Source: Ceratorhiza oryzae-sativae
Lineage: Eukaryota > Basidiomycota > Agaricomycetes > Cantharellales > Ceratobasidiaceae
Assembly: GCA_030998015.1 (NCBI GenBank)
Contig: JARWMV010000233.1
Location: 1,426,001-1,490,000, forward strand
Reading direction: 5' to 3'
Length of the DNA: 64,000 bases
Each line of letters opens with the position of its first letter. Within the stretch, counting starts at the first letter, position 1. Under the pieces are notes generated by a model. It was not told where the DNA came from, did not search any database, and was given only the letters and a program-made list of their open reading frames with translations. Positions 949-30,303 of the stretch are shown here, in pieces. The translations under genes were made by a program, and so were the position numbers.

Positions 949-2584
949 TTAGGCCTGAACAGATGTTGCTTCATGAGAGTTGAGCCCTTCCACGGTTGAC
1001 TCAGGAGTTGGACCAGCCTCAGTTAACTCTGTCTTGGGGGCATCGGGACCTGTACCTGGAGCTGCCTGCGCAGGCCTTTTACCCTTACCTGGTGGGGGAG
1101 GGTGGTACACCTTTTCCTGTAGCAACCAAACCGCACATTTATTTAGCGTGATTTTTCGTCGACCATTCGGTATTTTTATTTACCTTCTTTTTCTTGACCT
1201 CCACGACAGGTGGGGGGTAGGCCAATTTCTCGACTTCCTTCCACTCTTCGCTCGCCTCGAAAGCCTTTTGAATTGGCTCTAGCAAAGACACAACCGCATC
1301 CGCGACCGCGGCCTTCAAATCTCCCGGATGCACCTCCTTAGCTACGAAAGCGTCTTCTAGTTGCTTTGCGCTCGAAAAGTGGATCGGACCACCGTACTCG
1401 GGTTTTCTGGAGATAGTGAATAGAGTCCCCTCTGGAGCATCGGTTCCAACAAGTGGCGCCATCTGGGTGATTGGGATTCCCCGCGCAATACGACCCTGAA
1501 CAACCTGCATAAGGACCGCCTTGACGAACGCAAGAACCCCGTTGCCTTCCGCCACACCCTCTTCACAGAACGCAGAGCGGATCTTTTTCCGGATTGTCGC
1601 CGGCGGATCGAGGAAGTCGATTTTGGAGTTAGCGTCGGAAGAGGACATCTTCCCTCCCGTTAGACCTGGAACCATTTCGTTCATGAGATGCGCGCGTTTA
1701 CGGTAGCCCAACTTCGGCAAGTAGAGCTCTGCGAATGTAAAGATTTTGCGCTACATGAAAGGTCATGAGGTCCCGTTACACAATCGCATATGCTCCAACT
1801 CACCTGGTCCGCTCCACCAAACTGGAAATCGCAATCCAAATATTGCTCATCCAAGGCTTGCAGGCCGGGATACAACAAACCACTGAGCAGAGGGCTAGCA
1901 ACCTGCTTCACAACTTCTGCACCGGCCTTTTTAGCATCATGCTCGGTGACGGTTGCACAGAGCCGATAGTTGTCCATGTTATATTCCTTGCTGAGCTGGT
2001 AAGAGGATCCAATGACGAACTTCAAGCGATCGAGTGGGACCCCGAGAGAGGTGAATATTGCCTTAAGAAGATGAGAGTAATATTTCACTCTGTGGGCAAC
2101 GAGTTCCACTGGAGCTTTGAGGTTATCGAGGAAAGCATGAAGATCTAAGTGAACAGGCATTAGCATCAGGAAACGCAACTTCCAGAATCAGAGGTTCAAC
2201 CTGCGAGGAGAATGGTAACCTAACAGGATCTTTATGAATCGTTCCCAAAGTAACAGATGGACTAAACTTACTTCTACCCCTGCTTGTAAAAAATCTGCGA
2301 TCTTCATCAGGGGAACAAAGTAGCCGATATGAGCTGTTCAATGATTATTAGTATTGCGGCTTCCACTGTCATCCGAGGACCAGCACTCACGTCGGCCAGT
2401 AGTGGCGGTTCCTACACTCCCCCGCGTATGAGTCGAAGATCAATATGTAGGATATTTAATACATACCCCAATAGCATTTTGGATTCCTTCCCTCGCTTAG
2501 TATTGCCTTGATTATATCGCCTCCGAGTACTTCTTGAAGATTTCTGGTGATGATTTCGAATCTTGTGTCTGCGCTGGCAACCAT
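949..2584 (-). CDS. TYS1: cytoplasmic tyrosyl-tRNA synthetase
   Basis: This class I enzyme charges tRNA-Tyr with tyrosine in the cytosol. The start is the ATG at 2584-2582. Exons I can place: 2467-2584, 2391-2411 (21 nt), 2272-2333, a core exon of roughly 1804-2150, 1184-1750 and 949-1116. The first three join in frame to give YWGTATTGRPHIGYFVP, where HIGY is the class I HIGH-type signature. The core exon has [19 protein letters not shown] and QFGGADQ; the next has [17 protein letters not shown], the KMSKS loop. The C-terminus is a basic and Pro/Ala-rich tail ending SVQA. Oddity: between GVE at 2272 and DLHAFL near 2150 the usual strand with its VTVLLA-like residues is not readable in frame, so this stretch holds a frame problem or a microexon I could not resolve. 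The family call is very secure; the integrity of the gene is less so. Confidence 0.92.
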
Positions 2585-4027
2585 GGTCGAGTCAGAAGAA
2601 ATGAAGTTCTTAACGCTCAGCGTTTGGGTGCCCCCTCCATCATAATCAGGGTCTTCTAATTTGTGTTTGCAAATTTGTCACTGCCCCATTGGGTCAACCA
2701 CCTTGCTTCCAAGAAATGCTTCATACAACCTACCGTAAAATCTGGTGAAAATATGAGCTACATTCTGAGGCCCAAATTGCAGCCGTGGATTGGTTGAATC
2801 TTGGCTGATGCAAGAAGCAATCGAGGCATATTGGATGAATGACTCTTGCGTACAAGTTTGTACGGACTCGGGGGATTGGTGCCAGTGTGGAATCCAAGGG
2901 CTAATTGATAGATAGGGAATTGGCAAAGATAGAATATTCCTAATTTCACAGGGAGCAAAATGCTCATTAAGCTGTCAATCGTATTCGGCCTGGTTGCTCC
3001 GGTTTGGACGACCGGGTGCATACGTGGCGCGCCCGGGAAAGTTAGAACTGCTGTGAGCGAACCGCCCAGATTGAAACTGTGAGGACCGCCTCAGCGAACA
3101 CATTATGGGCTGTACTGTATTCAATCATGTGCATATATACCTACGCGACATTTAGTTAATTTATGAGTCAAATTACAGGTAGGCGGCGGGCTTTTAAGGA
3201 TGAAGCGAGGCTGGACATAAGCGCACCTCGTCCTTGGCCTTGCGAGGCCCGGGGTTTACGTGCATCGGCCGCTAGACGGTAGATCGAGAGTGCGCGATGC
3301 TTCCGTCGCAAGCTATGTCCATCGCCCCATGGACTAATTGGGAGAGGTCTAATTTTAATTGCTATATGCACACCATAGCAGTATCGACACATCATTATCA
3401 GTTTAAGACTCATGGTACTGTATTCCATAATAAAAATATCCCTGACTCTTCTTAGTGCACGCATAGGTCGCATCTTGCGGAGACACGAGACGGGATACTC
3501 AGCCTCAGCCAAATCGATGCGTGAGTACGAGCGCCGCATTATCAGGAGTGGTCACAAGGAAGACGCCATGAGCACTCCTGATAATATTTTGCAATCATAA
3601 GCGACATGTTTGCTTATGAGCGCTCGTGGCCACGAGTGGATTCTTGCGTCGACCGACGTTCACAAGAGTCGCGGCACTCACGTGCATACCCCTCTCCACT
3701 CGTAGCCTCACCTACCGCTTGTTCCCACCCGTACCTAAATTTCAAGTTCCAGGCGCCCCCCTCCTACACGTGCTTTGACTTTGCTCATGTAACGTGTTTC
3801 TATTTCCCATACAATTGAACGAATGTAGCCTAAAAAACCAGCAGCCCCGTTGGGACTTCGTTGGAAATCGCCCCACCGCTCGACACATACGCAGCTCCTT
3901 GGGCAAAAGCAAATTTCCTAGTTAGGGCTATTTAGAGCCCTGGTTCTACCTAAGCGGATCTGACGCCCGGATAGCTCATATTAGCACGCACTACTAGCGT
4001 TTATTCTCCTTAGGTAGAACGGGCACT
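2585..4027. other. gene-free stretch
   Basis: This is the upstream flank of the tyrosyl-tRNA synthetase gene followed by DNA in which I see only short frames without recognisable domains, including around 2678-3021 and 3168-3539. No repeats or RNA genes were recognised. Confidence 0.35.
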
Positions 4028-27072: not shown

Positions 27073-27344
27073 GAGGTGCCAGCTCGGCCATGGTATATGA
27101 ATGTGTGTGTGCTTTCGTGATGTATCGTTACCGATATATCAGCTGTCGACGGTGCTGTGAAATGTATGAACGAAATGAATCAAATACAAATGAACTGGCT
27201 TTCAGCTACGATTTATTCAGTCATCTTGGACTGAGTCGAGCATTGCTGTGACGGATGATAATTATAGAGCAAACGTTGGTCCAGCGTTGTGCAAATAATT
27301 ATATGCGTTTCGAAATTGAATTTAGTATCCCGATGAGCAGGATG
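27073..27344. other. intergenic spacer
   Basis: This is the 3' flank of the M3 peptidase gene up to the target duplication of the next mobile element. No gene was seen. Confidence 0.4.
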
Positions 27345-27349
27345 TATTG
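27345..27349. repeat. 5-bp target-site duplication, left
   Basis: TATTG directly precedes the left terminus and is repeated at 30154-30158, directly after the right terminus. Confidence 0.6.
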
Positions 27350-27396
27350 CTGGGGGTCGGCACCCTTCGGGTGCCGTGCCTGTGTATTACATAAGC
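27350..27396. repeat. left terminal inverted repeat with hairpin
   Basis: This 47-bp terminus contains GGCACCC, loop TTC, GGGTGCC, a perfect 7-bp stem. Its inverse at 30107-30153 differs at about five positions, three of which are the hairpin loop. Confidence 0.75.
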
Positions 27397-27865
27397 GGAT
27401 CTGATCCATGAAATGGTACCAGAATTGACCCCCTTAGCTCTTTGCAAATTGTTAAGTTAAAGACTCTGGAATAGGCGGAATAGACTCGTGTTGCATCTGT
27501 ATGATTGACCTTCAAGCCAGTTTAGTGATTTTCTGTGTGGTTCTGAAACTACAAGTTGGGCCCTATAGAGTACTTCCACACCAGAGCTGAAGTGAACAAA
27601 CAAAATCTAAGGCATTATTTGAGAACTATACAAATGATCAATGGTCAAATATCTTGACTGCTTTATATACAGGAGGTGGAGCACTAAGGCATATACTCCG
27701 CAATCTTATTTGCTGTGGCTTGTTTGGCAACATGGATTGGCAATGGCCAATGTGCCACCATCATTCAGTTTCCTGTGGCTAACCAAAATATAGCATAATA
27801 TCAGCTGTTACAGAATTCCCTCAAAATTTCAGGCATGACCAAAGAGGTACCTACAGCTCTCAGGT

Positions 27866-29933
27866 GTGGTAAAAAGGGCTGATCAGCAAACCAGTGTCTC
27901 CCTGGGGGTGGTGAATACTACTGCTGTGATAGGGGACATTTCGAAGGTATGCACACTGTTACAGCTAAATCTAAGACCATTTCTTCACATAAGGACTCTT
28001 GTTGTTACAAAAGAATACACCAGGCGAAAAAAGGAATGTGCATATACAAAGTGGACTGTCAAAACTTGTCTCAAAGCTGCAGAAAAAGAACTGTTCTCTA
28101 GCTGCTTGTAATCAACATGAGCTTGTGCAGAAACACAACCTTAGCTGGGTTGTCAGGCGAATGAAGGTAGCAGCTCAGAGGCTTGTCAAAGAGAAGCAAA
28201 AACTAGTCTTGAGTATCAAGAAACTCTCAAATCAGCTAGAAATGTGCAACATAGCTACAAAAACAAAGAATACACATCATAATCAAGTATTGAATCATGT
28301 TATCAAGTCTAAAACATCTTGGAAGAAGTGTGCTTACACTGCAGAAGAATCCTGTCAGTACTTGCTTGCAAAGCAGTGTGGCTTGACTGGTTCACAGTGC
28401 AGCTTTAAATTAAAGCCAGGTGTTGCATATAGTAATTTGATTTGCAGCCTGTCACATTGCCTAGTCATGTCTGGAGTCACTGCTACTCAGGTTCTGAAAG
28501 TGATTAGAATGTGTGCTCAGGCTTTTGGCATCACTATCAGTAAATTACCTTTGCCTCAGTCAGTTGGCCAATTTATCCTTGAGGGAGGTGTGAGTGCCAG
28601 AGTTCAAGCTGGGAACATCTTAGCCAACACGCAGGGTATGTTAGAGATGTATATAGTGTTCAGTGCACTGACAAAACTATTCAGGAGTCACAACCAGTAT
28701 GGATTCGACTTCACAGTGTGGTGTCAACTTCAGTAGTATGCATATAATGGCCAATTTGGGAAACTCTCATCAACAGCTTTACCTTGCAGTCAAATCAACA
28801 ATTGACCATACTAGCAAAACACAGGTCAAGGTCTTACAGAAACAGCTACAAGGTCTATGCAGTACAGTCAAGTGTGCTCCAAAAAGCAAATCAAGCCCAG
28901 CACTTCCCTTCAGTGCACAAGATATTGCACGAAAGCTCTACGGATCTAATGGAGATCATGCTAACGATCAGATCAAAGTGGCTCGATTACAAAGGCTCTG
29001 GAAGACTAACTCTTGGATAGAGCAACTAGGTGAAACTGCGTGGTCGAATCTTAGCACTGATGACTTAAATGTTGTTTACAAGCTGATACAATCGAAATCT
29101 GAAGATTCAGCTGGGGGTGTTTTGGCTTTTGATTGCTTGACGTCTGCTACTCAAGATGTTCTGCACTTGGCTGAACAATATAAATATGTTTACCAGCTTG
29201 GGGAGACAGCATTTACTCAGTCCTCCCCCATTCTTCAACACAACATGACTTGTGTAGTACAAGGCAGATGCTGCATGCACAAGGACATGAATGGAGTGAA
29301 AGGGGGGGCTTTGGCTATGTCAACATTCTGGAAGGAGAACAAAAATCTACCACAGCCTACAATCCTTTACAACAAGGATAACGACGCAGTAATGACACTA
29401 ATAGATCACTCGCCTGAGACGTCACTTATCAAGCAGCGCACTATCTCTGTCTCCGAAGCTGGGCCATCAAGCTCTGTAGCCTTTCAGGTGCAGCATTCAA
29501 TCACAAAGACGACAAGAAAGGCCACCAAGATGGCCACACATATTGGTTCAAGGCAAAATATGGTCAATCACATTGCTTCCTGGATACAAGCAATGTATGG
29601 TATAGCTCATTTATTGATGCTTCAACCGAACTCTGTGCTTTCCATGGCGCATATATCGACTATATGGAGCATGTTCGCTGTAAAAAAGCGTCAGGAGTCC
29701 TTAATCACCTCGAACAAAACATCCTTAAAGCATTGAAGTGTCCGGCGACACTTGCAGAGCTCATCGTTATTGCCCTATATGGGCAGGTCATCTCGAAGCC
29801 CTATATGCGACTAGTTCGCACTACCAGCGAGCTGAAGGCCATGGAGAAGAAGGCTTTGGTTTCGAGGCTTGCTTTTGAGTATTCCCATGCTTTACCGAGC
29901 TCTGAAACAGATTTGTCGAGCAAGTCCGTATGA
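27866..29933 (+). pseudogene. unnamed transposon protein, frame-broken
   Basis: Three overlapping plus-strand frames (27999-28736, 28699-29736, 29664-29933) are pieces of one protein. Readable conserved-looking blocks are KLYGSNGDHANDQIKVARLQ, GRCCMHKDMNGVKGG, LYNKDNDAVMTL, AFNHKDDKKGHQDGHTYWFK, LDTSNVWYSSFIDA, LNHLEQNILKALKCPATLAE and ALYGQVISKPYMRLVR. Near 29467 the frame must shift by one base within a G run to pass from SVSEAG into IKLCSLSGAAFNHKDD; more shifts are needed upstream. From memory, this block order recurs in large families of unnamed agaricomycete proteins. I know of no assigned function. Clustered Asp/His and Cys residues and its position between inverted repeats suggest a transposase, which is inference. 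Confidence 0.6.
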
Positions 29934-30106
29934 CGGTGATCAATGTATTATTTCACGAGCAATTGTAATTCAAGTATCTTAATTATTGAGCTCTAGGTTC
30001 TACTGGGATACCAATGAAAAGTATCAGGTATCATTTAGGAGACTATTATACAAAACGCCGTCGTATCTGCGCGGTCTGACTGAGTACCACTTTTTCGACC
30101 AAAATG

Positions 30107-30153
30107 GCTTATGTAATCCACAGGCACGTCACCCTTCGGGTGCCGACCCCCAG
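30107..30153. repeat. right terminal inverted repeat with hairpin
   Basis: This is the inverse of 27350-27396, ending GCCGACCCCCAG. Here the hairpin has a shorter perfect stem, CACCC-TTC-GGGTG. Confidence 0.75.
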
Positions 30154-30158
30154 TATTG
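30154..30158. repeat. 5-bp target-site duplication, right
   Basis: TATTG directly follows the right terminus and matches 27345-27349. Confidence 0.6.
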
Positions 30159-30303
30159 CTGCTCATCTCGAGTGGGAGTTGATCGAATAGGATCAGCATA
30201 CGCTTACGTAAGAGCTGACCTCTTGCTTCCAACTGCCACCACAGGTCGAGTGACTCTTAAACACAAAGCTGTTTGATCGTATCAGCACAATATTCTAATA
30301 TAC

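Follow-up and report, generated by a model that had tools for sequence, protein, structure and literature searches.

The window analysed here, a stretch of 64,000 nt from contig JARWMV010000233.1 of the agaricomycete Ceratorhiza oryzae-sativae (assembly GCA_030998015.1, forward-strand positions 1,426,001 – 1,490,000), harbors a cut-and-paste DNA transposon (nt 27351 – 30152, ends TGGGGG...CCCCCA) that is decayed and non-autonomous, an internal segment having been deleted. The full-length relatives of this copy probably encode a hAT-like transposase. The features established from sequence are palindromic termini starting with TGGG, 7-bp target site duplications, empty sites, deletion derivatives and the conservation of a catalytic triad. 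The original prediction, made from the letters of the window alone, had proposed a transposase or another element-borne gene; that the gene sits in a transposon is supported, and the unnamed agaricomycete protein family concerned looks like a transposase family. The element appears to work in the manner of hAT, and is described here as representing an agaricomycete lineage of hAT-like transposons whose ends are palindromic. It is not classed as a member of hAT because tests for the domain PF05699, for the usual 8-bp duplication and for sequence similarity all came out negative.

Anatomy of the window element and its target sites

Compared end to end, the terminal inverted repeats (TGGGGGTCGGCACCCTTCGGGTGCCGTGCCTGTGTATTACATAAGCG at the 5' end, nt 27351 – 27397, forward strand; 3' end, nt 30106 – 30152, reverse strand) are 89.4% identical over 47 nt, the length given in the original prediction, and 80% identical over 70 nt if extended. 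Each terminus carries a CACCC-TTC-GGGTG palindrome with a 3-nt loop. The 5' palindrome (nt 27358 – 27376, forward strand) has 8 of 8 stem pairs and a DNA folding energy of -10.8 kcal/mol (z = -3.5); the 3' palindrome (nt 30127 – 30145, reverse strand) has 7 of 8 stem pairs, a loop that is GAA when read inward, and -7.6 kcal/mol (z = -2.1). The loop thus reads TTC on the plus strand at both ends, as had been noted for this copy, but the constancy of strand does not extend to other copies (see below). The element is flanked on either side by GTATTGC (nt 27344 – 27350 and 30153 – 30159), a 7-bp target site duplication. A 5-bp duplication, TATTG, had been read at this place because the element boundary was set one base too far out on each side (CTGGGGG rather than TGGGGG).

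Between the termini are the remains of a single protein. An open frame covering its N-terminal part (nt 27993 – 28736, forward strand) ends ...QFILEGG and further; its only Pfam match, to Acyl-ACP_TE, was taken as chance because the score of 22.2 bits lies under the cut-off of 23.7. The RNase H part is found in a forward-strand frame at nt 28672 – 29736, with the first catalytic D at nt 28702 – 28704 (TTSMDSTS), the second at nt 28954 – 28956 (NGDHANDQ) and a CxxH motif (CCMH) at nt 29269 – 29280. A second frame (nt 29418 – 29933, forward strand) holds FNHKDDKKGHQD as far as an internal deletion, and then the C-terminal tail. The two blocks by which a decayed protein had first been recognised, GRCCMHKDMNGVKGG and FNHKDDKKGHQD, are both present, in two different frames. 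At the deletion junction (nt 29820/29821) 759 bp are missing relative to the copy L009 (L009 element positions 2474 – 3232). The TNDANEG block, which includes the third catalytic residue, lies inside this stretch of L009 (positions 2809 – 2829), and was not found when the window element was translated in its three forward frames.

Copies of the element were examined throughout the genome (48.8 Mb, 253 contigs), where other copies of the protein have the same kind of termini and consistent flanking duplications, as the original prediction requires. Exact 7-bp duplications occur in 17 of 24 flank pairs, compared with none of 552 pairs in which flanks were swapped between copies; when lengths from 4 to 10 were tried on the 24 pairs, 17 were exact at 7 and at most one at any other length. 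Three further pairs (L017, L029, L039) have a 7-bp duplication with one mismatch, and in three (L011, L024, L036) the 7-bp duplication is set 5 bp away from one end. The 24 pairs represent 23 loci because L017 and C3 (counted as exact) are one insertion. Left out of the count were L020 and L035 (an inverted pair), L014, L027 and L033 (a single end found), and L023, L032 and L038, which represent the same insertions as L030 and L031 and each have an exactly matching duplication. A 5-bp duplication was rejected for the family as a whole, an exact 5-bp match at both ends being present in just one of the 24 pairs (L011, ATATA, by chance or as a scar).

The genome looks to contain allelic contigs, and empty sites were sought for 18 insertions using probes in which the two flanks were joined with one copy of the duplication. 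For four of the 18 probes a single scored place matched over the full length, and all four sites were read. The empty site of the window element itself lies on C80 (99% match), with a single, uninterrupted GTATTGC; the others are those of L011 on C63 (98%), L015 on C78 (97%) and L019 on C8 (100%). The probes of L022, L026 and L040 matched end to end at several places, and these insertions therefore lie in repeats. No end-to-end match was found for 11 of the 18 probes; those of C30 and L021 gave partial matches spanning the junction, while for L028, L030 and L034 the best 40 of 1564 candidates were scored, and these were filled by repeats.

The probable transposase family and its relation to hAT

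On this reading, the full-length relatives (17 of the 24 two-ended copies measure 3,551 – 3,569 bp, i.e. 3.55 – 3.57 kb) encode one transposase. The protein has 238 homologues and belongs to a large agaricomycete family, as originally proposed; none of the 120 homologues listed has a Pfam domain, and those that carry a name are called only 'hypothetical', 'uncharacterized' or 'unnamed'. Saprotrophic genera such as Trametes, Cubamyces and Infundibulicybe are among the sources of homologues. Homologues of at least 755 residues have a predicted RNase H fold that combines a large helical insertion with a D-D-E triad and a CxxH motif. The acidic triad, which had been raised as a feature to look for, is conserved within this predicted fold; C287 and H290 of the CxxH motif, which follows the second D, are each present in 53 of 54 family members, and the helical insertion precedes the last catalytic helix, as is characteristic of hAT. 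The best structural match is Hermes, the hAT transposase of Musca domestica, which aligns with model residues 56 – 625 at 11% identity and was the sole standout in the fold search. These data suggest that a large unnamed protein family of mushroom-forming fungi consists of distant relatives of hAT transposases, carrying a hAT fold that is beyond the reach of the sequence models applied in this analysis. In mushroom genomes, hundreds of proteins now called 'hypothetical' would thereby receive a likely transposase identity, and the ends of their elements would become searchable. A limited literature search, which did not include Repbase, turned up no published description of the family.

Several observations speak against a hAT-like transposase. 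Whole-chain Foldseek alignments to Hermes are loose (TM-score 0.21 – 0.31 by query length, rmsd 13 – 25), and in the model about 100 residues, mostly helical, separate strands b4 and b5, a stretch that is not known from Hermes. A scan of 42 members at E <= 0.1 gave matches to 7 Pfam families, and one of 54 members at E <= 1 to 72; no hAT model appears among the 7, nor among the best 25 of the 72, and a search of PDB sequences with the family profile does not find Hermes at E <= 10. The duplications are 7 bp and not the usual 8 bp of hAT. At the level of individual copies, L037 (one of the 24 pairs) has both ends present but flanks without any duplication, and neither L020 nor L035, taken individually, has matching flanks. 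Finally, three 5-bp additions described below as possible scars are A+T-rich, and no vacated site was seen.

The hAT C-terminal dimerisation domain, PF05699, was unmatched both in the 42-member scan and among the best 25 of the 72 families of the 54-member scan; in the genome it matches 26 other places, none at copies of this transposon. The BED model was also absent among the matches listed in these scans, where the N-termini and first exons of the proteins are provisional; Hermes is described with an N-terminal BED zinc finger (PMC10368747). NCBIfam models matched one of six proteins, in its N-terminal part and far under cut-off in every case, and a plasmid search and a comparison with viral contigs gave nothing informative.

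Compared with Hermes, the family shares the RNase H core, the CxxH motif and the helical insertion that comes ahead of the final catalytic helix, and a flank-hairpin chemistry is proposed for it; it differs in the 11% structural-alignment identity, in having no hAT-type Pfam match seen, in the 7-bp duplication, in the extra residues between b4 and b5 and in its palindromic termini. Variation in duplication length is known within hAT, Kojima 2025 (PMC12730594) describing hAT5, hAT6 and hAT7 with 5, 6 and 7 bp. The hAT7 elements of rust fungi resemble the present one in being fungal, of hAT type and flanked by 7-bp duplications, but their transposases are reported there to cluster with fungal and plant hAT such as Ac and Tam3, unlike the present family with its absence of a hAT-model match. 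Kat1 of Kluyveromyces lactis is likewise fungal, of hAT type and equipped with a CXXH motif, which is required for hairpinning (PMC4763223); unlike the present protein, Kat1 is domesticated. A hAT among the active transposons of Marasmius oreades is not this family because it is described (PMC9674265) with DUF659 and the hAT C-terminal domain.

Two other superfamily assignments were weighed. Membership of KDZ, in particular of Kyakuja, a known agaricomycete lineage with 7-bp duplications, is improbable. PMC12730594 gives 7-bp duplications for the Laccaria families of Kyakuja, and TET-bearing Kyakuja were found in all five Agaricomycotina orders named there; the same paper describes 5'-CA..TG-3' ends without inverted repeats, whereas the present element has TG..CA ends with inverted repeats. 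The KDZ model PF18758, moreover, has 7 matches in the genome, none at copies of the family, and matches none of the 42 members at E <= 0.1. It is still less probable that the element stands on the CMCT/Transib/RAG side, even though it encodes a DDE enzyme with a C/H motif following the second D, and V(D)J recombination likewise makes flank hairpins (PMC6900584). As defined in PMC12730594, this group (CACTA, Transib, Plavaka, RAG1) is characterised by C(2)C and H(3-4)H motifs, mostly CA..TG ends and duplications of 2 – 5 bp, against the CxxH motif, TG..CA ends and 7-bp duplications seen here. The isolated position of Hermes in the fold search also tells against it, but P element, Transib and RAG1 were not in the VIA-align list and no dedicated comparison was made, so that their absence, like that of other families, excludes nothing. 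A hAT-like transposase remains the preferred assignment.

Terminal palindromes and 5-bp inverted additions

Among 27 distinct termini the 8-pair stem of the palindrome is kept in 91.2% of cells, compared with 86.3% in shuffles and at most 47.7% when slid. Two-sided stem changes occupy 18 cells versus 9.9 in shuffles, which ignore relatedness, and two of the five measures show no excess over them (pairs with a two-sided change, 4 vs 3.8; further pair types, 13 vs 12.4). In one subfamily the 3' palindrome extends to the first base of the element (33 nt, -18.5 kcal/mol as DNA).

In 25 copies (alleles included), which give 50 ends, the loops read TTC in 20 cases, GAA in 20, TTT in 6, AAA in 3 and AAG in one, the last being out of register because that end of L035 is one base short. 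Certain pairs of ends, identical in the 57 letters outside the loop, have loops that are exact inversions of each other, both at the 5' end (window copy/L009, L019/L023 and L020/L035) and at the 3' end (L019/L037). Copies L023 and L030 are one insertion, with a shared duplication and 96.4% identity over a stretch that begins 18 bp ahead of the element and extends more than 3 kb into the flank on the other side, and have opposite loops at the 3' end; inversion can therefore occur in place, without a new insertion. On these comparisons, loop inversion appears both to recur and to be possible in situ. The proposal that the element has its own kind of terminus is borne out in part: the palindromes with flipping loops are unusual, while the predicted fold is of a known kind, that of hAT transposases.

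The palindromes are probably binding or structural signals for the transposase, distinct from any hairpin formed on the flanks. There is about an even chance that they are ordinary dyad binding sites and that loop inversion is a by-product of replication, independent of transposition. The in-place difference between L023 and L030 and the lack of excess in the two stem measures above agree with this; the recurrence of inversion across several subfamilies and at either end, the two states being equally frequent, argues in the other direction, and is still compatible with replication.

Three copies on different contigs have 5 extra bp between one end and its duplication: L011 (ATATATC-ATATA-element-ATATATC), L024 (CTTAGAT-TCTAA-element-CTTAGAT) and L036 (ATAGTAT-element-TACTA-ATAGTAT). 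In each the extra letters are the reverse complement of positions 2 – 6 of the duplication, and the empty site of L011 on C63 does not have them. The same form was found in 191 of 200,000 random 12-mers of the window. The fair chance rates are higher because the three additions are A+T-rich, and amount to 3/244 among 12-mers with at most one G+C (for L011), 12/1401 with at most two (L036) and 18/4771 with at most three (L024). That all three of the three offset copies have this form is far beyond chance.

The predicted fold together with the CxxH motif suggests, by analogy, a flank-hairpin chemistry of the Hermes type in this family. In Hermes the first nick lies one base into the flank. The transposase would nick beside its own end, and the freed 3'-OH of the flank would attack the opposite strand, so that the flanking DNA would be closed by a hairpin and the element would be left with a free 3'-OH. 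The element would then join a target with a 7-bp stagger. A 5-bp addition could arise if the flank hairpin were cut open close to its base and, after fill-in, joined again to the same end, and the odd centre of the additions fits such a hairpin because of the position of that first nick. The three cases are accordingly interpreted as putative 'open-and-shut' scars, and the case for flank hairpins is indirect because no vacated site was seen.

The main rival to a scar, that the additions are template-switch errors made during fill-in of the 7-nt gaps that insertion leaves, is possible though rather unlikely. It would fit the added letters being part of the gap-filling product of the opposite end, if both ends are held together, but template switching would be expected to vary in length, and all three known additions are of 5 bp with the same centre. 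A broader proposal, which is doubtful, would make the elements a widespread agaricomycete superfamily sister to hAT, whose end hairpins of 26 – 33 bp are extruded and processed in vivo, with flipping of the loops, and whose transposase would at times cut one end, form a hairpin on the flank and close it again onto the same element; if true, the diagnostic 5-bp inverted scars left behind would be a genomic record of abortive transposition. A limited literature search turned up no published flipping palindromes or 5-bp inverted scars. Flank hairpins are made both by hAT elements and in V(D)J recombination (PMC6900584). If confirmed, the flipping loops and inverted scars would make hairpin intermediates traceable in natural genomes, and would bear on the comparison between hAT transposition and V(D)J recombination.

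Other copies in the host genome

The terminus pattern, allowing up to 2 mismatches, occurs at 90 sites in the genome (some palindromic ends being scored on both strands), versus one for the same pattern read backwards. A translated search with the homologue P0002 gave at least 80 matching segments; copy numbers are lower bounds because the best 72 of 105 candidates were scored, and the copies described here leave out ten regions at 28 – 57% identity to P0002. Two copies of about 1.25 kb each, L039 and L040, are internal deletion derivatives.

In the eight-copy L019 subfamily, C/T or G/A differences make up 260 of the 276 variable columns with two states, 224 of these at CpG. The CpG share is 136/195 in a second set and 127/384 in the window's own set, where 150 are at CpA. 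Methylation of CpG may account for the pattern in the first two sets. Counting both strands, cytosines preceding G number 110 in the window copy (2.8 kb) versus 354 in L019 (3.6 kb), suggesting decay of methylated CpG in the L019 subfamily and in the window copy.

Several copies have a more complex structure. L020 and L035 (C249:564666 – 569531 and 587370 – 590920) lie in opposite orientation, with inner flanks that are 100% identical over 600 bp and outer flanks of TTGTTAT on each side. The pair looks like a 26-kb composite that has two 5' ends as its borders and its own 7-bp duplication, or it may be an artefact of assembly; the L035 half has a 99% copy (L027) on contig C198. L037 (C241:208067 – 211822), with its unmatched flanks, is a possible recombination product. 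L012/L013 (C30:42866 – 52666) is a 9.8-kb copy with the duplication CTGAATG, in which the additional length looks like a nested retroelement, judging its open frames by eye. L041/L016 (C241:910025 – 925441, 15.4 kb) and L042/L018 (C3:245516 – 255776, 10.3 kb) have exact 7-bp duplications, TTTACAG and GGGGCAA, and were probably enlarged through nested insertions. A second, more distant branch of the transposase, at 28 – 44% identity to P0002, is found at C4:33359, C13:50739, C60:24434, C239:987403, C240:967883 and other places.
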